Shown here piece after piece: positions 7,606-21,358 of a stretch of 35,262 bases of DNA. Both the position numbers and the translations under genes were made by a program. The stretch covers positions 1-35,262 of the IMG/VR virus record IMGVR_UViG_3300027901_000015; one strand, 5' to 3'. The notes under the pieces are model-generated. The model saw only the letters and a list, made by a program, of their open reading frames with translations, was not told where the DNA came from and did no database searches. Every line of letters starts with the position of its first letter. The first letter of the stretch is position 1. This stretch comes from a virus.

Positions 7606-7735
7606 TTAATAAAAATCTCCCATCTCTTAAGCAACAAGAAATACACCAAGCATATAGCCTTGGTATATCTGAACGCATCCAAAACTCTGTTTCTTTTTTA
7701 ACTTCACCACATTTTTCACATCGTTTTAGATTCAT
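7367..7735 (-). CDS. Short zinc-finger ORF overlapping terS
   Basis: Only about the first 45 residues look like a real protein: Cys6-x2-Cys9-Gly, then Cys31-x2-Cys34, the CxxCG...CxxC arrangement seen in small phage zinc-finger proteins related to the HNH nuclease knuckle. From residue 44 the frame runs inside terS in another frame and becomes Arg/Ser-rich, as expected of a shadow, so either the true product is frameshifted into terS or its tail is non-functional. No Shine-Dalgarno is visible before the ATG; instead a terminator-like hairpin with a T run lies there. Confidence 0.45.
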   Translation of the reverse strand: MNLKRCEKCGEVKKETEFWMRSDIPRLYAWCISCCLRDGRFLLSEEEEINSARRRHRDSSRTTLSRYAKEKKKKSSWHSSDIRRIIHRGCRTISGSRVHGKRLRIRVQLLPPHSSRLEKKVS

Positions 7736-7741
7736 ATAAAA

Positions 7742-7776
7742 AGCAGAGTGATTTGACCAGGCGGGCTCACCCTGCT
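7742..7776 (-). terminator. Terminator-like hairpin ahead of the leftward late genes
   Basis: On the minus strand AGCAGGGTG pairs with CACTCTGCT (nine pairs including one G-T), followed at once by TTTTT and then the ATG at 7735. This has the form of an intrinsic terminator or attenuator at the head of the packaging operon. The same two arm sequences recur in the larger structured element at 13086-13206. Confidence 0.5.
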
Positions 7777-8053
7777 AAAGCCTATAAAATATATAATCTA
7801 TCTGCATCAGCCAAACCTCCACTATAGGTTACGTACCGCCGAAGATTATATTATAACTATATGGACAGAATTTGGGCTACTTATAGATATTCCTATACAG
7901 TATAACAGGAACGGATATGTGACCTAATATTCTTGTTAGTTATTTATCTAACATACATATCTATCTCTATTGATTCTGCTGAGATATATTTTTATTGAGA
8001 TTTCCATATCTCATATACCTCTGTTATAGGTATATTAAGAGATAATTCGCACT

Positions 8054-8081
8054 ATTTTACTGTTAAAGAGATATATTTCAA
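8054..8081 (-). promoter_or_regulatory. Possible leftward sigma70-type promoter
   Basis: On the minus strand TTGAAA (8081-8076), a 16-base spacer and TAAAAT (8059-8054). It would transcribe toward the terminase genes. In DNA this AT-rich such matches occur by chance, so the call is tentative. Confidence 0.3.
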
Positions 8082-8190
8082 GAACAAAATAAAAATATTT
8101 ACAATATTGTAATAAAATAGCAGAAAAAGTGCACTTTAATCCTTAATATAATATAACAAAGAGAATATGATAATTATATATAAATTATAC

Positions 8191-8219
8191 TTGACATATA
8201 TAGTAATATATATTATAAT
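8191..8219 (+). promoter_or_regulatory. Consensus sigma70-type promoter for the early genes
   Basis: TTGACA at 8191-8196, an exact 17-base spacer and TATAAT at 8214-8219, a perfect match to the bacterial housekeeping consensus. It lies 32 bases before the first rightward gene, so transcription would start near 8226. This is the obvious early promoter for the whole rightward block and implies reading by host RNA polymerase soon after entry. Confidence 0.85.
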
Positions 8220-8251
8220 AAAATAAAAACATTAAATAATAGGAATAAATA

Positions 8252-8824
8252 ATGAAAAATGATAGGATGTTTCCAACAAAAAAGCAGCAAGAAGTATATA
8301 AACTAGTACATCCAGACTTTGAGGGGCTTACAATAGCTCAAGCAGCAGAAAGATTAGGTATAACTGAAAGCTCTGCACGTAGAAGATTAAATAATATGCG
8401 TGAGGATTTTCCAGAAGCCTTTAGATTTGAGAAGTTTGACAATCAAAAAGTAGCTGGAATGAGTAATATAGCACAGATTTATGGTGGTTATAAAGCAAAA
8501 GCTACTAATCAAGGCCTAGAATTTACCTTGACACAAGATGATGTTAAGGAATTAATACAATTAGAATGCTTTAATTGTGGATATTTACCAAATAATTCTT
8601 ATGCAGTAGATGATTATGATGATAATTATGACCATTTTAATAGTGAATTTGCTGGTATGTCAATTGTTAATCCAAGTGAATATAATAAATGGGCTTATGA
8701 TGAAGAAACTGGATATAGATTTCCATATAACCATTTGTGGAGATATGATGTATCTAAAGGATTTACTTATGATAATGTAATAACTTTATGTACTAAGTGT
8801 ATCCAGAAACGAAGAGACCAATAA
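8252..8824 (+). CDS. HTH protein with degenerate HNH-like C-terminus
   Basis: A 190-residue protein, first behind the consensus promoter. Residues 25-55 form a helix-turn-helix of sigma70 region 4/LuxR type (GLTIAQAAERLGITESSARRRL). The C-terminal half has CFNCG and a final LCTKCIQKRRD, spaced as the zinc knuckle of phage HNH endonucleases; between them LWRYDVSKGFTYDNV aligns with the family's IDR-x-DN-x-KGYT-x-DN. The catalytic His is not obvious, so nuclease activity may be lost. It could be an early regulator that grew from an HNH protein, or an active nuclease with a DNA-binding head. TAGGA precedes the ATG. Confidence 0.7.
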   Translation: MKNDRMFPTKKQQEVYKLVHPDFEGLTIAQAAERLGITESSARRRLNNMREDFPEAFRFEKFDNQKVAGMSNIAQIYGGYKAKATNQGLEFTLTQDDVKELIQLECFNCGYLPNNSYAVDDYDDNYDHFNSEFAGMSIVNPSEYNKWAYDEETGYRFPYNHLWRYDVSKGFTYDNVITLCTKCIQKRRDQ

Positions 8825-8836
8825 AGGAGCTATAAA

Positions 8837-9007
8837 ATGCCTGATGGTGTTAAATATATATTTAATGAAATAATTCGTAAGCTATCTTTGGCTAAAATAG
8901 CTAGTACTCACAAAGGCAAAGAGCTTATTGATGATGTGCTGTTCAATGATTTACCAAAATTAAAGGAGCTATTAGATGGAAAAAGTAATGACCGACAGAT
9001 TATTTAA
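8837..9007 (+). CDS. Hypothetical 56-residue early protein
   Basis: A short helical protein with an excellent AGGAG ribosome site seven bases before its ATG. The body (for example IFNEIIRKLSLAKIAST) is amphipathic, with no cysteines or membrane segment. Its end overlaps the start of the next gene by 32 bases in a different frame. No family recognised; small early phage proteins often act on host targets, but nothing here shows that. Confidence 0.6.
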   Translation: MPDGVKYIFNEIIRKLSLAKIASTHKGKELIDDVLFNDLPKLKELLDGKSNDRQII

Positions 9008-9215
9008 GTCTATATTTTATAAGACATATCAGTTTAAGTTAACTGGTATGACTGATATGGAAATAGTTGGAGTGTTAGAATCTATTAAAGATTATTATAT
9101 TCATAATTCATGTTTAGACTTTACTGATGCTTATATTAAATCACAGATTAGAAATGCACAGAATAGAAAGTTTAAGTTAGTACCTATTAAGGAAGAATTA
9201 AATGAAACCAAGTAA
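8976..9215 (+). CDS. Hypothetical 79-residue early protein
   Basis: A predicted all-helical protein rich in Ile, Lys and Tyr. AAGGAGCT precedes the ATG at suitable spacing. It overlaps the following zinc-ribbon gene by 14 bases, as in an operon read by one ribosome train. No motif is recognised. Confidence 0.65.
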   Translation: MEKVMTDRLFKSIFYKTYQFKLTGMTDMEIVGVLESIKDYYIHNSCLDFTDAYIKSQIRNAQNRKFKLVPIKEELNETK

Positions 9216-9444
9216 GAATTTTAGAGAACATCCTACTAATAAGAATCATTTATTATGCCCCTTTTGTGATAGTGAGGCTTGGTATGTAACTAATTCTTGG
9301 ATTAAATGTTTCTTATGTGGTAGAATGTATAGTAGAAGTATATTAGAGATATTGCCGGTTTATCGTGCTAATATGCAATTACAACAGATTAAGAAATTGA
9401 ATGATACTATGGGAGAGATGTTTGGGGGGTTCTTTGACAAATAG
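9202..9444 (+). CDS. Small zinc-ribbon protein
   Basis: An 80-residue protein with a textbook zinc ribbon: Cys19-Pro-Phe-Cys22, a Trp-Tyr strand, then Cys36-x2-Cys39-Gly. A helical tail ending GEMFGGFFDK follows. AAGGA precedes the ATG inside the previous gene. Such ribbons usually bind nucleic acid or serve as protein docking units; the partner is unknown. Confidence 0.7.
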   Translation: MKPSKNFREHPTNKNHLLCPFCDSEAWYVTNSWIKCFLCGRMYSRSILEILPVYRANMQLQQIKKLNDTMGEMFGGFFDK

Positions 9445-9452
9445 GATATATT

Positions 9453-9671
9453 ATGAAAAATTATATAAAATATTATTATTGGATATATGGATTAGATAAT
9501 CCAATAGTTATAAAGGAGAGTGCTCCCTGGACTTCTGAAAGCAATAGATTATCTATAGGTAAAACTAAAGCTTTAGAAACTATAAAGAAAGGTTTAATTT
9601 TACAAAAAAAAGATATTTTGAGAATATATCCACCAAATAGAATTAAATATATTGAAATAGAAAGTATTTGA
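9453..9671 (+). CDS. Hypothetical 72-residue protein
   Basis: A basic protein rich in Tyr, Ile and Lys, without cysteines or recognisable motifs. AGGAT lies before the ATG. Its TGA overlaps the start of the next gene (TGATG), which supports translation in series. Confidence 0.6.
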   Translation: MKNYIKYYYWIYGLDNPIVIKESAPWTSESNRLSIGKTKALETIKKGLILQKKDILRIYPPNRIKYIEIESI

Positions 9672-9865
9672 TGAAACAAAAAAGATTCAAAAGACATAAA
9701 GACTTAATAAAGCAAGCGGTCAAGAACAATCAAGGTAGACTGACTAATGAAGAGCGACTAGCTAAGAATATATTAATATTGAGCGGAATTAGGAATCCTA
9801 GTCGGGAGTTAATTCGGGAGGCAATGAAAAATTATGAAAAAGAAAATATTAAGAAGGCTATTTAA
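9671..9865 (+). CDS. Hypothetical 64-residue basic helical protein
   Basis: A Lys/Arg/Asn-rich protein with a helix-loop-helix look (HKDLIKQAVKNN, then NEERLAKNILILSG, then RELIREAMKNYEKE). A TTG one codon earlier is an alternative start. It overlaps the stop of the upstream gene and the start of the next. The high positive charge suggests nucleic-acid binding, but no family is recognised. Confidence 0.6.
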   Translation: MKQKRFKRHKDLIKQAVKNNQGRLTNEERLAKNILILSGIRNPSRELIREAMKNYEKENIKKAI

Positions 9866-10061
9866 GATTGGTGAATTTCATCCTAATATGCAAATTGATA
9901 TAAGTTATACTCAAGAATATCTTAAAGTAGCTAGGGGCCACTATAATGAAGATAAGATTAGATTTAGAGGAGCTCCAATTACCAGATTAACTAAAGAAGA
10001 ATTGGAAACAGTTATAGCTATGTTATATAACTATCAAAATCAATCTTTGTTTTGGGATTAA
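9834..10061 (+). CDS. Hypothetical 75-residue protein, last of the early block
   Basis: A basic protein with the C-terminal helix TRLTKEELETVIAMLYNYQNQ. It starts inside the previous gene, with GGGAGG 14 bases upstream of the ATG. It is the last gene before the 730-base repeat-rich region. Function unknown. Confidence 0.6.
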   Translation: MKKKILRRLFKIGEFHPNMQIDISYTQEYLKVARGHYNEDKIRFRGAPITRLTKEELETVIAMLYNYQNQSLFWD

Positions 10062-10134
10062 ATATATTATATAATTTTTTGAGTACTTGTACCAACACCC
10101 ACAGCCCTTTCCTTATCTCTGCCTACCTACCCCT

Positions 10135-10199
10135 GTCCGATAATAAATAAGTCCAATAATGTTGTCATAGTCCAATAATAAATATCACGTCCTATAATA
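10135..10199 (+). repeat. Four GTCC-box direct repeats
   Basis: Copies GTCCGATAATA (10135), GTCCAATAATG (10151), GTCCAATAATA (10170) and GTCCTATAATA (10189) are spaced 16, 19 and 19 bases apart. Further single copies lie at 10450, 10540, 10585, 10600, 11288 and 11337. The regular spacing of about two helical turns suggests protein binding on one face of the DNA. Confidence 0.7.
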
Positions 10200-10296
10200 G
10201 GTATAAGCGTGCGTGTGAATGTTAGTGAATATAGGACTGACTTTTATCACTTATACTGTCTATCCCATCTATATCAATAATCACAATTATACCACT

Positions 10297-10396
10297 ACAA
10301 TCAATACAATTAATACTCATTATAATCAATAAAATCAACATAATTAGACTTATAATCAATATTATACATATAACTAATACAATCAATATAATCAAT
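10297..10396 (+). repeat. AT-rich ATAATCAATA repeats
   Basis: Repeats of the form (T)A(T/C)AATCAATA occur at 10297, 10321, 10351, 10379 and 10388, two of them (10321 and 10351) exactly 30 bases apart. They form a likely easily melted block between two groups of GTCC boxes. Confidence 0.5.
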
Positions 10397-10417
10397 CTGC
10401 ATCTATCTATCAATATC

Positions 10418-10436
10418 TTATTGCATATTGCAATAA
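10418..10436. repeat. Perfect 8-base dyad
   Basis: TTATTGCA and TGCAATAA separated by TAT, an operator-like perfect inverted repeat within the noncoding region, 14 bases before another GTCC box. Confidence 0.5.
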
Positions 10437-10470
10437 CATTATAAGACCTGTCCGATAATATCGCATTGAC

Positions 10471-10488
10471 GATTATAACGATTATAAC
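10471..10488 (+). repeat. Tandem GATTATAAC pair
   Basis: Two exact head-to-tail copies of GATTATAAC, following a GTCC box at 10450. Part of the repeat-rich candidate origin. Confidence 0.5.
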
Positions 10489-10679
10489 ACTCAGGTTATA
10501 GGACTATAATATTGCTATTTATAGTAGATATATTAAATAGTCCTATAATACTAATTATATCAATTCTAATGATTATACTGCTACGTCCGATAAACTCAAG
10601 TCCGATAATAAAATCTTCATCTATAAATCCTTGTCAATAAAGCACTTATAACTTTTTTCAAAAAAACTTTGTTTTTTAT

Positions 10680-10708
10680 TTGCATTTTATCCTTTTATGT
10701 GTTATACT
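10680..10708 (+). promoter_or_regulatory. Promoter P1 of the duplicated leader cassette
   Basis: TTGCAT at 10680-10685, a 17-base spacer and TATACT at 10703-10708, with TGTGT just before the -10 (an extended -10 TG). Two GTCC boxes lie 80 and 95 bases upstream. Transcription would begin near 10715 and run into the hairpin at 10741. The same -35, extended -10 and flanks recur at 11376. Confidence 0.75.
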
Positions 10709-10740
10709 TTACTTTAGGTATGGATGGTAAAAACTTGTTT

Positions 10741-10772
10741 TATGTGTAATAGGCGAAAAACCGAAACACATA
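10741..10772 (+). ncRNA. Leader hairpin, copy 1, conserved 18-nt loop
   Basis: TATGTGT (10741-10747) pairs perfectly with ACACATA (10766-10772) around AATAGGCGAAAAACCGAA. The second copy at 11430 has the identical 18-base loop but a different stem that still pairs, so the stem is kept by compensating changes. It lies in the 5' leader between P1 and the gene at 10791; GG and CC inside the loop could form a small inner stem. Likely a cis-acting RNA element or protein-binding site. It matches no riboswitch class that I recognise. Confidence 0.6.
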
Positions 10773-10790
10773 CTATTTAAGGGAAAACCA

Positions 10791-10874
10791 ATGTTTACTA
10801 CTATTATAGATAATTTGCGTATCGTTAAACGTATAGCTTTATTATCTGTATTCTGTTTTGTGGCATTATGTTGA
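10791..10874 (+). CDS. 27-residue hydrophobic (leader) peptide
   Basis: A short reading frame with a good AAGGGA ribosome site after the leader hairpin. The peptide has a charged start and a hydrophobic end (IALLSVFCFVALC), like a single membrane segment. Its stop lies at the AGGAGG that serves the next gene, so its translation could couple to or regulate that gene. It could be a leader peptide rather than a functional protein. Confidence 0.45.
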   Translation: MFTTIIDNLRIVKRIALLSVFCFVALC

Positions 10875-10885
10875 GGAGGTTTATT

Positions 10886-11050
10886 ATGAATGATAAATGC
10901 AAAATTACAGAAAAAGAGCATGATAAAATGTGTGAAATATGTAAGGAAATTTTAGGGTTTCCTACTGATAATATGCCTTTGCCTTGTAATGCCGATGCTT
11001 TTTTATTCTGTCCTGCAAAAGCAATAGACGATTTTCTAAAATTGGAGTAA
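10886..11050 (+). CDS. 54-residue cysteine-containing protein
   Basis: Start taken at 10886 because GAGGAGGT lies six bases upstream; a TTG-led extension to 10868 is less likely. The protein has Cys5, Cys16 and Cys19 (MCEICKE), then Cys40 and Cys48, possibly one zinc site. It is the first longer gene behind promoter P1. No family recognised. Confidence 0.6.
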   Translation: MNDKCKITEKEHDKMCEICKEILGFPTDNMPLPCNADAFLFCPAKAIDDFLKLE

Positions 11051-11054
11051 AGAT

Positions 11055-11333
11055 ATGAGCAGAACACGCAACAAAAACCGTAATAAGAAAAACCGTAAAC
11101 GTCAAGAAAAACTGGAATTAAAACTATTAGGTGAAATCGGGATAAAAGCACAAAACGAAGGTAAAGCAATTAGTATAATGATGGTAACAGGTAATGTTCA
11201 ACAGAAAAGATTAAATAGAACATACAACATAGATGGCGTTAAATTTTGGGCGGGTAAGAAACGCAGGCAAGGAGGTAATATTGGGACGTCCGATAACCGA
11301 ACCCAGCCAGCTATGCTATGGGAAATCAAGTAA
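11055..11333 (+). CDS. Hypothetical 92-residue very basic protein
   Basis: The first 20 residues are nearly all Arg, Lys and Asn (MSRTRNKNRNKKNRKRQEK), followed by a mixed region with VKFWAGKKRRQGG. It is probably RNA- or DNA-binding by charge alone. It uses CGT and CGC for arginine, unlike most genes in the window, which use AGA. Its last codons contain a GTCC box (11288), part of the upstream region of promoter P2. No family recognised. Confidence 0.6.
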   Translation: MSRTRNKNRNKKNRKRQEKLELKLLGEIGIKAQNEGKAISIMMVTGNVQQKRLNRTYNIDGVKFWAGKKRRQGGNIGTSDNRTQPAMLWEIK

Positions 11334-11375
11334 AAAGTCCGATAAAAGAATTTTAAGAAATTTTTGATTTTTAAT

Positions 11376-11403
11376 TTGCATTTTGGAAAATATGTGTTAT
11401 ACT
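11376..11403 (+). promoter_or_regulatory. Promoter P2 of the duplicated leader cassette
   Basis: TTGCAT at 11376-11381, a 16-base spacer and TATACT at 11398-11403, with the same extended TATGTGT before the -10 as in P1. GTCC boxes lie 39 and 88 bases upstream. It would drive the gene at 11511 through a leader containing hairpin copy 2. Confidence 0.75.
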
Positions 11404-11429
11404 TTATATAGAACGAAAAATTGATTGTA

Positions 11430-11459
11430 TCGGGTAATAGGCGAAAAACCGAAATCCGA
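11430..11459 (+). ncRNA. Leader hairpin, copy 2, conserved 18-nt loop
   Basis: TCGGGT (11430-11435) pairs with ATCCGA (11454-11459), six pairs with one G-T, around the same AATAGGCGAAAAACCGAA loop as copy 1. Four of the stem pairs differ from copy 1 on both sides, yet the register is identical. It sits about 20 bases into the transcript from P2 and 51 bases before the next ATG. Confidence 0.6.
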
Positions 11460-11510
11460 AAAAACCAAAAACGTGGTTATTTTATGGGTTTAATCTGAAA
11501 GGGTTTAGCT

Positions 11511-11756
11511 ATGTCAAGAAAACGCAAAGTTACACTATCAAACAACAAAAAAGAGAATGTAGCCAGGTTTGCTTGTTCACGTCTTAACAAGGCCGTTAAT
11601 GCTGTTAGGGTGTTCGGTAATTGTTATGGCTCTAACTATGACTGGACAGACGAACAAATCGAAAAGGCCGAAACGTATCTACTTGACGAAGTACAAAAAA
11701 GTATCGAGCAAATACGTTCTGGCTCTGGCGTGGCTATCGCTGGAATTAGTCTATAA
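11511..11756 (+). CDS. Hypothetical 81-residue protein of the atypical cassette
   Basis: The N-terminus is basic (MSRKRKVTLSNNKKEN) and a helical body follows, with DEQIEKAETYLLDEVQKSIEQIRSG near the end. AAAGGG precedes the ATG. Codon use is visibly less AT-biased (CGC, CGT, GGC and GCC are frequent) than in genes on either side, which suggests separate acquisition. The N-terminus resembles that of the 92-residue gene (MSR-x-R-K start after the same leader). No family recognised. Confidence 0.65.
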   Translation: MSRKRKVTLSNNKKENVARFACSRLNKAVNAVRVFGNCYGSNYDWTDEQIEKAETYLLDEVQKSIEQIRSGSGVAIAGISL

Positions 11757-11766
11757 GTAAAGACGT

Positions 11767-11820
11767 GCTGTTTAATACTCTGCTATAATCAGGGTTGGTT
11801 ATAGCAGAGACTTAAACAGC
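11767..11820 (+). ncRNA. Long perfect hairpin after the cassette
   Basis: GCTGTTTAA and CTCTGCTATAA (11767-11775 and 11778-11788) pair without mismatch with TTATAGCAGAG and TTAAACAGC (11799-11809 and 11812-11820). This gives 20 pairs with a 2x2 internal loop and a ten-base loop. It lies 10 bases after a stop codon. No T run follows on either strand, so it is not a classical terminator; an RNase III-type processing site, a transcript-end stabiliser or a protein-bound site are alternatives. Confidence 0.6.
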
Positions 11821-11847
11821 AATATTAAAATATTTGAGGGTATAATT

Positions 11848-12048
11848 ATGAGTAAACAAATAAAATGTAATTTGGATATAAAAGATAATACTTTACCAAA
11901 TTATAGACAATTTATGGATATTAAAACTTATAAAGCTATCGGCATAAACGGCGGTCGTTGCGTTGTTTGTGCTAAAAATTTACAACACGCTAAATTATTA
12001 GCAATAACAAAACTTGGTTGCAAGTGTAAAGAAATTTATAGAATATAG
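11848..12048 (+). CDS. Hypothetical 66-residue cysteine-bearing protein
   Basis: A basic protein with Cys8, Cys38 and Cys41 (RCVVCAKN), then Cys58 and Cys60 (GCKCKE); the last four could hold a zinc ion. GAGGGT lies before the ATG, after the long hairpin. AT-rich codon use returns here. No family recognised. Confidence 0.6.
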   Translation: MSKQIKCNLDIKDNTLPNYRQFMDIKTYKAIGINGGRCVVCAKNLQHAKLLAITKLGCKCKEIYRI

Positions 12049-12059
12049 GAGGTTTAATT

Positions 12060-12200
12060 ATGATTACTGAATCCGAAAAACAATATGTTAAGTCTCAAGA
12101 GAGAGAATTGGAAAGTCTTTATGATAGGCGACTAATATCTTTAGAGCAATATCAAATAGCTTTAGAAAAACTTTATAAACCTTTTAAGGAAAAACTATAA
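12060..12200 (+). CDS. Hypothetical 46-residue coiled helix protein
   Basis: A strongly helical charged protein (ESEKQYVKSQERELESLYD, then SLEQYQIALEKLYK) with a perfect AGGAGG ribosome site seven bases before the ATG. Its TAA overlaps the next ATG (TAATG). No cysteines and no membrane segment. The helical pattern resembles the short SHOCT-like motif, but this is only an impression. Confidence 0.6.
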   Translation: MITESEKQYVKSQERELESLYDRRLISLEQYQIALEKLYKPFKEKL

Positions 12201-12382
12201 TGAAAAGACAATTAGATGAATTTGATTTACAAGCTGAAAAAGAAGGTAGTGCTTTAAGATTTGCAGCTATGAATAGAACAAACCATCAATATCGCGTATC
12301 TAATAAGCAACGATTTATTAAAACCAAACATATTGGAGTAACGAAAGATGGACAGAGAAAATTTGATAGATTATTCAGATGA
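12200..12382 (+). CDS. Hypothetical 60-residue basic protein
   Basis: Charged and Arg/Lys-rich toward the C-terminus (KHIGVTKDGQRKFDRLFR). It is coupled to the preceding gene by TAATG and overlaps the next, cysteine-rich gene by 35 bases in another frame. No recognised motif. Confidence 0.55.
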   Translation: MKRQLDEFDLQAEKEGSALRFAAMNRTNHQYRVSNKQRFIKTKHIGVTKDGQRKFDRLFR

Positions 12383-12476
12383 TTTCGATTGGTCTGAAAT
12401 GCCAGATATTATTGATTGTGAGGGTAATTGCTTCGGGTGTTGCAGGGATGATTGTGAGTGTCAATTATCTGATTAG
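12348..12476 (+). CDS. 42-residue acidic, cysteine-rich peptide
   Basis: An acidic N-terminus (DYSDDFDWSEMPDIID) and a tight cysteine cluster, CEGNCFGCCRDDCEC, with six cysteines in 15 residues. This could bind a metal cluster or form disulfides. It starts inside the end of the previous gene; AACGAAAG before the ATG is a weak ribosome site. Confidence 0.45.
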   Translation: MDRENLIDYSDDFDWSEMPDIIDCEGNCFGCCRDDCECQLSD

Positions 12477-12528
12477 AAGAGAATAATTTAACACTTACTT
12501 CTATTTTAGAGGGGGTTAAAATATAATT

Positions 12529-12645
12529 ATGTTATTAGCACATCAAAAACCAAGTAAGATAAAAGCCAATTATATGTATTATAGGTTCAAAGTGAAGTTT
12601 TGGTTGTTACACAAATTTAATTTAATTAAGGCTATAAGATTATGA
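12529..12645 (+). CDS. 38-residue basic peptide
   Basis: A short, basic, aromatic-rich peptide (NYMYYRFKVKFWLLHKFN). A GAGGGGG run lies about 12 bases upstream and the TGA overlaps the next ATG by four bases, the coupling used throughout this operon. No family recognised. Confidence 0.45.
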   Translation: MLLAHQKPSKIKANYMYYRFKVKFWLLHKFNLIKAIRL

Positions 12646-12857
12646 AGATTAGTAAAATTTGGTTTCCTGCATTTGAGGGTTTATTTGTGTGTGGTGAAAT
12701 ATCTAATGATGATGTAGCAGAAATTATAGCTATAAGAAGCACTATATTTTATGATGTATATGCTGGGTATAGTAAAACAGAACAAAATAAAAGAAAACAA
12801 ATAGTGGATTTCGTAAAAAGTAAAGGGTATGAAATAGTTGAGATTATAGAGTTATGA
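12642..12857 (+). CDS. Hypothetical 71-residue protein
   Basis: A mixed alpha/beta small protein ending in a helix-strand unit (KQIVDFVKSKGYEIVEIIEL). It is coupled to the upstream peptide. No cysteine pair beyond a single Cys and no membrane segment. Unknown. Confidence 0.6.
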   Translation: MKISKIWFPAFEGLFVCGEISNDDVAEIIAIRSTIFYDVYAGYSKTEQNKRKQIVDFVKSKGYEIVEIIEL

Positions 12858-12869
12858 AAAGATTTAATT

Positions 12870-13064
12870 ATGAGCGAATCAAGTACAATAAATAATTATG
12901 GAATTAATTTTACAAGCCTACTGACTATTTTATTCATAGCTTTGAAATTAATGGGTTATATAAATTGGTCGTGGTGGTGGGTACTATCACCAGTTTGGAT
13001 AAGTGCTATAATAACAGTCCTTGTTATTGTGGTAATTATCATGGTAACATTATTATGTACATAA
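12870..13064 (+). CDS. Two-helix membrane protein, Tmemb_185A-like (Fragile-X-F) phage type
   Basis: A 64-residue protein with two hydrophobic helices (about 14-30 and 40-62) joined by NWSWWWVLSPVWI. The layout NNYGINFTSLLTILFIALKLMG then WSWWWVL is the one found in many small phage and bacterial proteins annotated as transmembrane Fragile-X-F proteins. It should sit in the inner membrane. Its role is unestablished; holin-like or host-membrane functions are guesses. Only a weak ribosome site is visible. Confidence 0.75.
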   Translation: MSESSTINNYGINFTSLLTILFIALKLMGYINWSWWWVLSPVWISAIITVLVIVVIIMVTLLCT

Positions 13065-13085
13065 GTTTAATTTATATGTCATTAT

Positions 13086-13209
13086 AGCAGGGTGGGCTGA
13101 CTGGACGTCCAGGATTGCTCACATCATAAAGCATAGCATAAGCTATATTTATAATCCTGCCTAAATAGTCTGTAAATAAAATAAATATAGACAGGCTCAC
13201 TCTGCTTTT
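13086..13209 (+). ncRNA. Candidate structured RNA with closing stem and inner hairpins
   Basis: AGCAGGGTGGGC (13086-13097) pairs with GCTCACTCTGCT (13195-13206) over 12 positions (two G-T). Inside are CAGGATT/AATCCTG (13110-13116 with 13153-13159), which encloses ATAGC/GCTAT (13133-13146), and GTCTGTA/TATAGAC (13168-13174 with 13186-13192). A short T run follows the closing stem. No convincing gene covers 13065-13245. The outer arms match those of the hairpin at 7742-7776. It may be a small RNA ending in its own terminator, or a leader for the gene at 13246. Confidence 0.55.
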
Positions 13210-13245
13210 AATGTTAATATAATTTATTATTGAAAGGGTGAAAAA

Positions 13246-14001
13246 GTGAAAAAATACTATAAATTGACAGACCAAAATATGCAAACTTTTGGGGGTTTTC
13301 AATGGGAAGTTGGAAAGTGGGTTGAAGCTAAGGGCGACTTCAATAAACCGCTATGTTCTAATGGTTGGTTACACTGTTATGAATCACCTTTGTTAGCGGT
13401 GTTACATAATCCTATACACGCTGATATTAAAAATCCACGATTATTTGAGGTTGAAGTAAGGGGCAAGAGTAAATTCGATAAACAACTGAAATGTGGATTT
13501 CGTAAAATGAGACTTACAAAGGAAATACCACTACCTAAAATTACTATAAACCAAATAACGGCCTATGGGATTTTATGTGCTAAAAATAATTACAAAAATG
13601 GCACATGGATTAAATGGGCTAATGATTGGTTAAGTGGAAAGGACAGAAGCAGAGTTGCTGCTTGTGTTGCTGCTGATGCTATTTATGCTGCTTGTGTTGC
13701 TGCTGCTGCTAATGCTGCTACTTATGGTTATGATGTTGCTACTTATGCTGCTAGTGCTGCTGCTTGTGTTGCTGCTGATGCTGCTCATGGTGCTGCTTGT
13801 GCTGCTGATGCTGCTATTTATGCTGCTGATGCTGCTGCTTATGGTTATGATGTTGCTACTTATGCTGCTGATGCTGTTGCTGAGGCTGCTACTTATGCTA
13901 CTTATGCTGCTAATGCTGCTGCTTGTGTTGCTGCTGATGCTGCTCATGCTCATGTTATTAACTTGATTAAAATAGCAGAACAAGCTATAAAAATAATATA
14001 G
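13246..14001 (+). CDS. DUF7666-type protein with long alanine-repeat tail (GTG start)
   Basis: A 251-residue protein. Residues 1-130 match a domain recalled from many phages and prophages: YKLTDQNMQTFGGFQWEVG, GWLHCYESPLLAVLHNPIHAD, RLFEVEVRGK and WANDWLSGKDRS. Its function is unknown. From residue 135 to 240 the chain is mostly Ala with Tyr, Asp and Cys, coded by GCT-rich repeats, including two copies of TYGYDVATYAA or AYGYDVATYAA 39 residues apart. The start is GTG with AAAGGG upstream. The tail is probably helical and variable in length between relatives. Confidence 0.75.
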   Translation: MKKYYKLTDQNMQTFGGFQWEVGKWVEAKGDFNKPLCSNGWLHCYESPLLAVLHNPIHADIKNPRLFEVEVRGKSKFDKQLKCGFRKMRLTKEIPLPKITINQITAYGILCAKNNYKNGTWIKWANDWLSGKDRSRVAACVAADAIYAACVAAAANAATYGYDVATYAASAAACVAADAAHGAACAADAAIYAADAAAYGYDVATYAADAVAEAATYATYAANAAACVAADAAHAHVINLIKIAEQAIKII

Positions 14002-14028
14002 TAAGTTTTGTTAAAGGGGGATTAAGAT

Positions 14029-14121
14029 ATGATTAAATATATTATATATACAATGTGTAGATGGTGTCATGGTGATGGTTGTCCAGCTTGTAATTGGGAA
14101 GGATTTATAGAAGAAATATAA
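14029..14121 (+). CDS. 30-residue DnaJ-like zinc-knuckle peptide
   Basis: A tiny reading frame with a strong AAAGGGGG ribosome site. The middle, CRWCHGDGCPACNWEG, has the spacing of one half of a DnaJ cysteine-rich repeat (CxxCxGxGC..C). It lies between the Ala-repeat gene and the amidoligase locus. Peptides of this type are seen in several phages, but the role is unknown. Confidence 0.5.
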   Translation: MIKYIIYTMCRWCHGDGCPACNWEGFIEEI

Positions 14122-14250
14122 CTATATGGATAGATATTAGGCACGGATGCTTTTTCTTTTTAAGGGTATGATAATAATAGATATGGCAAAATTTATATCT
14201 GATTTAGCTGTTACCTGTTAATGAAAAGCTTTATACATTGAGGTAAATAA

Positions 14251-15345
14251 ATGAGAAGCAACCATATAGATAGTGATTTATTAAAGTGTGATAATTGCAA
14301 TAAACTAAAAGACGGAGATTTTTATGTAGTGTATAATAGGGCTTACCAATCTACAGAAGTTTGTGAAGATTGCCTTGATACTTATTATACTTATTGTGAT
14401 TGCTGTTGTGACTATTACGAAAATAATTATGTAGAATACTATAATGATATATCACGGTATTTGTGTACTGATTGTTTAGATAATAGTTATTTTACCTGTG
14501 AGAGTTGTGGTGCGTTACAGCCTAATTATAATTATGGTGGTAGTTGCTCTAGTTGTGGTTATTCCAGTGAATATTGCGAGTGTAATTATCACTATGATTT
14601 TAAGTTTCATAGCACTAATCATGAAACAAGGTATAATGGTAATATACTATATTATGGTATTGAGTTAGAAGTTGGTTCATTTGAGCATACTGATAGTGTA
14701 TTGAGTGTGATTCGTAAATGGAGTCCTGAGTATGCTATGGTAACAGAGGATTGTAGTATATATGATAATCACGATGTAAGATGTGGTGGTGAAATAGTCA
14801 TGCAACCATGTACGTACAATTGGTATATAGATAATAAACAGCAAATAAAAGATATGTTTAGTAGACTAAAAGACGCTGGCTATAGAAGTTATAAAACTGG
14901 AAGTTGTGGAATTCATATACATATGTGCAAAGACGCTTTTAGTACAAACCATCTGTATAAATTTATTAAAATGATTTATGAACACAGAGAATTTACAGAG
15001 TTTGTGAGCCAGCGTAATGGTCGTGGGATGAATTGGTGCAAACTAAGTAATGAAAATAATGAAGATTCATATAAATATAAAGCTGAAAATAAGAGTAGCA
15101 ATGATAAATGCTCTGCTGTAAATTTGATACACAATAAAACTTTAGAAGTTAGGATATTTAGAGGGACATTAAAATTTAGTAGTTTCTATAAGAATATACA
15201 ATACTTACATTCATTATTTGAATTTACCAAAGAAGTAAAGAAAACGGATTTGGCTCTTGATAATTACTTGAAATTTATATCGTTAAATAAAGATAGATTT
15301 GAATATTTATATAATTGGTTGAAAGAAAAGGGTAGGATACAATGA
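14251..15345 (+). CDS. Amidoligase-like protein 1 with N-terminal zinc fingers
   Basis: A 364-residue protein. Residues 13-112 carry many CxxC pairs (CDNC, CEDC, CDCC, CTDC, CESC, CSSC), enough for several zinc ions. The C-terminal half fits the Amidoligase_2 family, distant relatives of glutamine synthetase/gamma-glutamylcysteine ligase that join an amine to a carboxylate with ATP: YYGIELEVG (135-142) with metal-binding Glu, GGEIVMQP (179-186), CGIHIHM (219-225) and a late EVRIFRGT. AGGT precedes the ATG. It is the first of two paralogues, followed by a class II amidotransferase. The substrate is unknown; the zinc region may dock a protein or nucleic acid. Confidence 0.75.
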   Translation: MRSNHIDSDLLKCDNCNKLKDGDFYVVYNRAYQSTEVCEDCLDTYYTYCDCCCDYYENNYVEYYNDISRYLCTDCLDNSYFTCESCGALQPNYNYGGSCSSCGYSSEYCECNYHYDFKFHSTNHETRYNGNILYYGIELEVGSFEHTDSVLSVIRKWSPEYAMVTEDCSIYDNHDVRCGGEIVMQPCTYNWYIDNKQQIKDMFSRLKDAGYRSYKTGSCGIHIHMCKDAFSTNHLYKFIKMIYEHREFTEFVSQRNGRGMNWCKLSNENNEDSYKYKAENKSSNDKCSAVNLIHNKTLEVRIFRGTLKFSSFYKNIQYLHSLFEFTKEVKKTDLALDNYLKFISLNKDRFEYLYNWLKEKGRIQ

Positions 15346-15554
15346 TATTTATAGATGTAGATAGAATGGTTGATTCTTCTATTCATATTAACGATTTAAG
15401 AAGATATTTATGTGATGATAATGTAGGCTATGTACAAATGACAGCACGTATGTTACATACTTTTTATGGGTTGCCATACAGTAAAAAGTGTGAAAAAGAT
15501 TATAAAAACTACGATTGGTTTGAGAGGGTAAAGAAATTTCTTGAGGTACTTTAA
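15342..15554 (+). CDS. Hypothetical 70-residue protein between the two amidoligases
   Basis: It overlaps both neighbours by ATGA-type junctions (15342-15345 and 15554), so it is translated with them. It has an acidic, helical sequence with LRRYLCDDNVGYVQMTARMLHTFYGL and no obvious catalytic motif. Its fixed place inside the amidoligase locus suggests a shared process, perhaps as a small partner or substrate. No family recognised. Confidence 0.65.
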   Translation: MIFIDVDRMVDSSIHINDLRRYLCDDNVGYVQMTARMLHTFYGLPYSKKCEKDYKNYDWFERVKKFLEVL

Positions 15555-16786
15555 TGATAGTATTAGAATATACTAATTGTGTAATATGCAATACTAATAT
15601 AAATTTATCTAGCGCATGGTCACATTATATAGTTAATACTACATACATTAGAGATGAAGAATTACATGAGAGTTTCAAGGGGTATAAAGAGAATGAAAGT
15701 AATCATGCACTGGGATATGTTTGTGTACCTTGTTATAATGAGTTAATGAGGCCATTACTATCTGATAGAGAACGTTATTCATTACAATCTATGTTGGGAT
15801 ATTTTAACTGTCAGCGGTGTCAAGGAGAAGTTAGTATTCATTGTATGCGACAAGATGATAATGAAATTGTATGTATTGACTGCTTCTCTATCAATCATTG
15901 GTCATGTTATCATTGTAATGAATGGTTTAATAGTGATATAGAATATTATGAAGGCGATACAATCGGAGCACAATTTTGTGAAGATTGTTGGTCAGAAAGA
16001 CAACGTAGAGACTTCATAAAACCGTATGATTATATACCTAATAATCACAACTTCTATAAAGAAGATAATGAATATAGAAATTTGCTATACTTTGGGATTG
16101 AATTAGAAATTGAAGCTAATGATAATGATAAATATTTATTTGCTGCTCAATTACCAGATTTTGTATACGCTAAATCCGATGGAAGTTTATATAATGGGTT
16201 TGAAATTGTATCACATCCTACCAGCTATAGATGGTTAATGAAAAATAAAGAAAAATGGAATGAATTATTATGTTGTAGAAAACGAGGTTACCGCAGTTTT
16301 AATACGGATACTTGTGGTATGCACGTACATATGAGTAAAAATGCATTCGGAAATCATCACTTATATAAATTTATGAAGTTATTTTATAATAATCCTCAAT
16401 TAATATATAAAGTTAGTCAGAGAAAAACGAAAAAAAATTTGGATAGGTGGGCACAGTTAAAGCCTACTGTACCATTAAAAAAGGTAGCAAAATATAAAAG
16501 TATGTATAACCACGATAATAGATATACAGCTATTAGTTTATATAATCATCCTACAATTGAAGTTAGAGTATTTAGAGGTACATTACATCCACCATCATTT
16601 TGGAAAAACATAGAGTTTTGTAAGTGTGTTTATGAATTTTCATATAACAATAATGAGAAATATATGACTGAGCTCAATTTCAGAAAATATGTTAAGATAA
16701 ATAAATCAGAATTTCCTAATTTGTATTCATTTTTATATAGTAGTGAAAGTAAGATTGAGACTGAGAAATTAATGATTGATTGTTAA
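15554..16786 (+). CDS. Amidoligase-like protein 2 with N-terminal zinc fingers
   Basis: A 410-residue paralogue of the upstream protein. Cysteine pairs at 57/60, 86/89, 107/110, 118/121 and 142/145 form the N-terminal zinc part. The ligase half repeats the landmarks: LLYFGIELEIE (178-187), KSDGS (207-211), GFEIVSHP (215-222), GYRSFNTDTCGMHVHM (245-260) and TIEVRVFRGTLHPPSF further on. Conservation of Glu and His at equivalent places suggests both copies are active. The two proteins differ widely outside these motifs, so the duplication is old and each may have its own substrate. Confidence 0.75.
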   Translation: MIVLEYTNCVICNTNINLSSAWSHYIVNTTYIRDEELHESFKGYKENESNHALGYVCVPCYNELMRPLLSDRERYSLQSMLGYFNCQRCQGEVSIHCMRQDDNEIVCIDCFSINHWSCYHCNEWFNSDIEYYEGDTIGAQFCEDCWSERQRRDFIKPYDYIPNNHNFYKEDNEYRNLLYFGIELEIEANDNDKYLFAAQLPDFVYAKSDGSLYNGFEIVSHPTSYRWLMKNKEKWNELLCCRKRGYRSFNTDTCGMHVHMSKNAFGNHHLYKFMKLFYNNPQLIYKVSQRKTKKNLDRWAQLKPTVPLKKVAKYKSMYNHDNRYTAISLYNHPTIEVRVFRGTLHPPSFWKNIEFCKCVYEFSYNNNEKYMTELNFRKYVKINKSEFPNLYSFLYSSESKIETEKLMIDC

Positions 16787-21290: not shown

Positions 21291-21312
21291 TTATACCCTT
21301 TCATAAAGGCTT

Positions 21313-21336
21313 AGGGCTGTGCCTATAAACAGCCCT
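21313..21336 (+). terminator. Probable intrinsic terminator after ssb
   Basis: AGGGCTGT and ACAGCCCT pair perfectly (eight pairs) around GCCTATAA, followed by ATTTATTAT. It lies 22 bases after the ssb stop and 22 before the next ATG. The T-rich tail is interrupted, so termination may be partial. Confidence 0.6.
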
Positions 21337-21358
21337 ATTTATTATAAAGGAGATTAAT

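Follow-up and report, generated by a model that had tools for sequence, protein, structure and literature searches.

Twin leader hairpins with an identical loop behind a duplicated promoter in a phage genome: a candidate cis-acting RNA tag

What does a phage gain from a small leader hairpin that it carries twice, with the same loop letters, behind two copies of the same promoter? The question is raised by the window, i.e. the whole stretch of DNA analysed here, a virus record of 35,262 bases with a G+C content of 32%. Its left part holds minus-strand genes, read as structural or packaging genes, and its plus strand a long array of small genes, amidoligase-like genes, a helicase, a primase and a DNA polymerase. 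The twin promoter–hairpin cassettes sit in the early part of this plus-strand array, a position from which we infer that the operons behind both hairpins are early operons (Table 1). The genes downstream of the hairpins matched no known family.

Table 1. Features of the twin cassettes, and boxA-like motifs in leaders of the same promoter family
Feature	Position	Strand	Remarks
Promoter 1, TTGCAT-17-TATACT, extended -10 TGTGT	10680..10708	+	From sequence; TTGCAT 10680-10685, TATACT 10703-10708, TG extension
Leader hairpin 1, 7-bp stem, AAUA/GAA internal loop, GG/CC, apical CGAAAAA	10741..10772	+	Stem 10741-10747/10766-10772; loop 10748-10765
27-aa hydrophobic peptide MFTTI...FVALC	10791..10874	+	First ORF downstream of hairpin 1
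Small Cys-containing protein	10886..11050	+	Listed ORF start 10868; homologue in L044, E 0.0012
92-aa protein, N-terminal arginine/lysine-rich segment	11055..11333	+	Candidate hairpin reader
Promoter 2, TTGCAT-16-TATACT, extended -10 TGTGT	11376..11403	+	From sequence; TTGCAT 11376-11381, TATACT 11398-11403, TG extension; orthologous promoters in L005 and L052
Leader hairpin 2, 6-bp stem, same 18-nt loop	11430..11459	+	Stem 11430-11435/11454-11459; loop 11436-11453
81-aa protein, predicted two helices, basic N-terminus	11511..11756	+	First gene after hairpin 2
boxA-like motifs in promoter-family leaders	L036 557; L038 3707 and 3352; L039 4407; L043 3805; L011 9948	- (L036, L038, L039, L043); + (L011)	

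The same extended promoter can be read directly from the sequence at both places, with spacers of 17 and 16, as the first-pass annotation had it. The element behind it, which had been placed 25-30 bases downstream, begins 32 and 26 bases after the end of TATACT if measured to the stem, and 39 and 32 bases if measured to the loop. The claim of an identical 18-nt loop (AATAGGCGAAAAACCGAA) enclosed by pairing flanks in the same register was confirmed; no third site was found in the window at up to 3 mismatches, and none of 100 shuffles gave two. For an 18-nt gap flanked by an uninterrupted helix of 7 bp or more, and of 6 bp or more, the frequencies in the window are 0.0016 and 0.0042 (joint 6.8e-6), or, given the shared inner T-A pair, 0.0040 and 0.0095 (about 3.8e-5). 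Between the two stems three pairs are changed on both sides, one goes from G-C to G-U, two are unchanged and one is broken in copy 2, so that the earlier figure of at least four double-sided changes was too high. With the register shifted by 1-3 columns the double-sided changes disappear altogether; the shuffle control, which with two rows cannot decide, reached the observed number in 65 of 500 cases. Across the two leaders 21 bases round the loop are identical and the flanking bases differ widely. Both the promoter duplication and the hairpin pairing hold up.

The loop, identical in its letters, is not fully open, for two G-C pairs (GG/CC) are predicted inside it in both copies. The predicted apical loop is thereby 7 nt, CGAAAAA, on 2 bp, and could also be drawn as GAAAA closed by a C-A mismatch. 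Folding energies give z-scores of -2.78 and -1.13 for the isolated hairpins and are unremarkable in the full leader context (z -1.10 and -0.35). A U run such as marks an intrinsic terminator or attenuator is missing behind either hairpin (tails CTATTTAAGG and AAAAAACC), and both are absent from the list of intrinsic terminator-like sites. Pairing partners for the loop within the window amount to the two loops themselves and one site with 2 mismatches. A leader peptide ending in the loop, with TAATAG after the 5' arm in both copies, was rejected because copy 2 has no reading frame opening with ATG there, unlike copy 1.

The annotation further saw a conserved RNA fold and suggested a covariance model as the way to find more of it. 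Such a model, built from the two window copies, was run on the window together with 47 other loci (48 sources); it recovered both input copies (E ~1e-8) and then three matches with E-values from 0.59 to 3.9, of which those in L018 and L035 (E 0.59 and 2.8) were discarded, as some of the model's pairs are broken there. A scan of 23 whole records, i.e. the window and 22 of the 43 other virus records with loci, recovered the window and one partial match with an E-value of 0.24 (UAGGCGAAAUACCGAA in L014), which was set aside as lying inside a serine-protease-like reading frame. Neither the exact loop nor a variant with two free positions had a match in IMG/VR, a search that possibly left out records very near that of the window. 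The nine exact loop 18-mers in bacterial and archaeal genomes are taken as chance because the flanks of all nine have only 0-2 contiguous pairs. Rfam 15 gave no match in the window at the gathering threshold and none on the hairpins at E<=10, and a literature search did not return the leader hairpin element among its results. Among annotated phages the cassette had no match, a relaxed E-value yielding short chance-like matches only, and for the nearest of these phages the DNA polymerase matches are all below 60% identity. A conserved RNA family was therefore rejected, since further copies were absent from IMG/VR, the prokaryote genomes and the covariance scans. What survives of the earlier idea of a cis-acting RNA used twice is its use within one phage, for which the compensated stem and the fixed loop speak, and not its conservation beyond that phage. 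The sequence thus supports, within this phage, a phage-specific cis-acting leader RNA, a further instance of a familiar type of element, the phage leader hairpin.

Relatives of the window point the same way, as two of them hold unrelated hairpins in the orthologous leader. The record containing L003 and L005 belongs to a related phage (DNA polymerase 54% and 71% identical over two aligned stretches); L005 has the same gene order here, with a homologue of the 81-aa protein (64%) behind the same promoter, whose 16-mer TATGTGTTATACTTTA occurs three times in that locus, two further promoter copies lying upstream. In L052 the 81-aa gene (52%) follows a slightly different promoter copy. Like hairpin 2, the leader hairpins CGGC-AAGGATAA-GCCG in L005 and CGGGC-ACGGACAA-GCCCG (plus a shorter one) in L052 stand between promoter and 81-aa gene, both orthologous to those of the window, but loop and stem are different and their loops carry ANGGA, which the loop of the window does not. 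ANGGA is the CsrA-type recognition core. The first promoter of L005 is followed by a 20-bp hairpin and the second by no clear hairpin. The 81-aa protein itself has homologues in six phage loci and weak matches to two Synechococcus phages, and its model is a plain two-helix arrangement.

It is the promoter that is conserved between phages, and the hairpin does not travel with it. The pattern TTGCAT-16/17-TGTGTTATACTTTA was also found in the relatives and in 43 IMG/VR stretches, some of which, judged by eye, are probably chance matches inside coding DNA; a host search by the same pattern gave 0 of 7, 0 of 398 and 0 of 167 genomes. For a structure test, 64 promoter-like matches were reduced to 44 by dropping nine loci judged coding by eye and the leaders with upstream A+T below 0.68. 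Hairpins reached p<=0.05 against shuffles in three of these 44 leaders, and a general 5' structure in the promoter family was accordingly rejected.

Considering what the twin hairpins might do, the reading that we tentatively prefer, and which still falls short of probable, is that each serves as a tag of the nut/boxB kind, recognised by a protein acting in trans, which may be the 92-aa product, with antitermination as the presumed effect. In this scheme, in which it is inferred that the leaders are transcribed, that a protein binds them, which protein this is and that antitermination results, the hairpin would mark an early phage transcript in cis, close to its 5' end. The stem would have to keep its pairing alone, whereas the letters of the internal loop, of both G-C pairs inside the loop and of the A-rich apical loop would stay constant through recognition by a single trans-acting protein. 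Both leaders would be bound by a small RNA-binding protein of the phage, for which the arginine-rich 92-aa product of the first operon is a candidate; once bound, it would modify the elongating RNA polymerase or protect the transcript, and both early operons would be switched on together. The preference rests on the loop and stem pattern, the promoter distance, the basic segment of the 92-aa protein and the boxA-like motifs in leaders of the family. A loop of fixed letters in a stem that conserves only pairing is what a protein-read RNA hairpin would be expected to look like, and action on the young transcript is favoured over masking of the ribosome-binding site because the distance of the hairpin from the promoter is steadier than that from the ATG. 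Against the tag stands the fact that there are two copies only, in one phage.

Support for the 92-aa protein as the reader is indirect. Its gene lies between the two hairpins, in the first operon, and it starts with the basic segment MSRTRNKNRNKKNRKRQEK, predicted to be helical (residues 2-35, block pLDDT 62-79) in a structure model that is poor overall (mean pLDDT 56.5). It had no match in Pfam, among the N-protein models, among solved chains in the PDB or among annotated phages, and its best in PHROGs was 0.16, to an unknown. The basic segment is absent from the homologues of two of three relatives, L005 and L052, both of which lack the window hairpin, and the third, in L044 (E 0.005), has a different basic N-terminus, and its gene immediately follows a promoter of the same type, another hairpin lying between the two. 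Basic N-terminus and hairpin would thus go together, as a correlation in a handful of phages, and the arginine-rich product is perhaps what reads the hairpins.

The closest comparison is with the lambdoid N/nut system, where a lambda-type nut site requires a boxA, a boxB with a pentaloop, and the N protein, and where the apical sequence of boxB is U-GAAAA-A. Similarly, the window has a hairpin with the same loop in the leaders of two operons, early by their position, one of which encodes a small phage protein with an N-terminal basic segment, and its apical C-GAAAA-A resembles that of lambda. On the other hand, the hairpin has two G-C pairs under the apical loop followed by a 4x3 internal loop, the 92-aa protein is not recognised by N models, and the leaders lack boxA (consensus TGCTCTTTAACA), the best matches in the two 70-nt leaders having 5 and 7 mismatches; for this last reason the hairpin was not filed as a lambda-type nut site. 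It may nevertheless work like one without belonging to the known family. Antitermination without a phage protein is also known, from the HK022 put RNA. On the plus strand no intrinsic terminator-like site was found from 7700 to 16000; one occurs further along this gene array, at 21312-21337, among 10 sites against 6.6 in shuffles.

Other leaders of the family do contain boxA-like motifs, in L036, L038, L039, L043 and L011, where the same promoter family and the same leader position are combined with a linear element in place of the hairpin. After four more coding-like loci and duplicates were dropped, 39 leaders remained for a regular expression and 38 for a mismatch count. The consensus within 2 mismatches occurs in 3 of the 38 unique leaders against 0.07 in shuffles, none of 300 of which reach three. 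Compared with neighbouring stretches (the next 70 bases, and upstream), the leaders have 3 versus 1 and 1 at up to 2 mismatches, 4 versus 3 and 1 at 3, and 12 versus 9 and 10 at 4, which is a weak excess. The regular expression, chosen after looking, finds 6 of 39 leaders against 0.28 in shuffles and none in both neighbouring stretches. If one promoter family carries either boxA-like motifs or hairpins, this would show an exchange of leader signals while the promoter stays, and, if the 92-aa protein reads the hairpin, a 32-nt RNA and a 92-aa protein would form a compact RNA–protein pair from an uncultured phage group. The fuller proposal of a new antitermination site, in which the rRNA-type boxA that stands behind the same early promoter family in other phages has given way to a hairpin with a sarcin/ricin-like internal loop, read by a phage protein whose N-terminus became arginine-rich, is rather unlikely.

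The sarcin/ricin (bulged-G, loop E) consensus is AGUA/GAA. In sequence, the window has AAUA opposite GAA between Watson-Crick pairs, i.e. the consensus but for the bulged base, an A in place of G. A bulged A is reported to be a rare natural variant, and loss of the bulged G to cost ~5.5-6 kcal/mol in model duplexes (PMC8450098).

Next to the tag come two readings that we consider unlikely, and equally so. Under one, an early protein (the 81-aa, the 92-aa or another) binds its own leader hairpin as an operator and blocks translation or destabilises the message, which would suit the fact that each hairpin precedes a gene whose small, basic product begins MSR(T/K)R, namely the 92-aa and the 81-aa protein, and that an AAGGG ribosome-binding site starts 6 bases past hairpin 1, itself 18 bases from the ATG. 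Hairpin 2, however, ends 51 bases from its ATG and 39 from AAGGG, so that direct occlusion is unlikely there, and in L005 and L052 the conserved 81-aa protein is encoded behind leaders with other loops. Those same leaders, with their short hairpins of unrelated loop, and the 20-bp hairpin of L005 fit the other reading, that a 5' hairpin merely stabilises or insulates early transcripts and that the identical loop is a remnant of cassette duplication or conversion; but the promoter family is not rich in hairpins, and if the duplication were recent, the stem should have been preserved along with the loop.

A site acting as DNA, in which the 18-mer is an operator just 3' of each early promoter and the pairing of its flanks is incidental, would account for 18 identical bases at a similar position behind each, yet it leaves the in-register stems with their three compensated pairs to a joint chance of about 7e-6, and a third copy is missing from the window; we regard it as improbable. 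Of the three roles first suggested, protein-bound regulator, antitermination element and ligand sensor, the last is the least likely, because the hairpin is short and its distance to the start codon variable. A riboswitch or other metabolite sensor would indeed be a cis-acting leader with a fixed loop and a variable stem, but the element has about 32 nt and a single helix, is not followed by a U run, matches no Rfam family even at a permissive threshold and precedes genes of no known family, which makes this very improbable.

Several smaller observations concern the surroundings of the cassettes. Between two early genes, 10061-10680 is a stretch of about 600 bases without a plus-strand gene, A+T-rich and with repeated ATCAAT-like words, part of which (ACCCACAGCC) recurs at a like place in L005. 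Just 5' of promoter 2, at 11337-11349, lies GTCCGATAAAAGA, found also upstream of the promoter in L005 and L040, with a counterpart, GTCCGATAA, in L020. ORFs of 23-27 aa ending (A/S)L(C/M), like the 27-aa peptide, occur downstream of the same promoter type in L005, L006 and L016, either directly behind it or some hundred bases further, and similar short ORFs were seen by eye in L015, L036 and L033. A perfect TTGACA-17-TATAAT promoter at 8191-8219 precedes a gene whose 190-aa product weakly matches sigma region 4, and the leader behind this promoter is without such a hairpin. Directly after the 81-aa gene, 11766-11821 forms an inverted repeat, long but imperfect, which lacks a U run and may be where an RNase processes the transcript; L005 and L052 have a different inverted repeat there. 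Further along, an array of 9- and 12-base units at 13635-13970 encodes an alanine-rich stretch within ORF 13246-14001, and two adjacent genes at 14251-16786 have amidoligase-like PHROG matches and are paired in L005 too.
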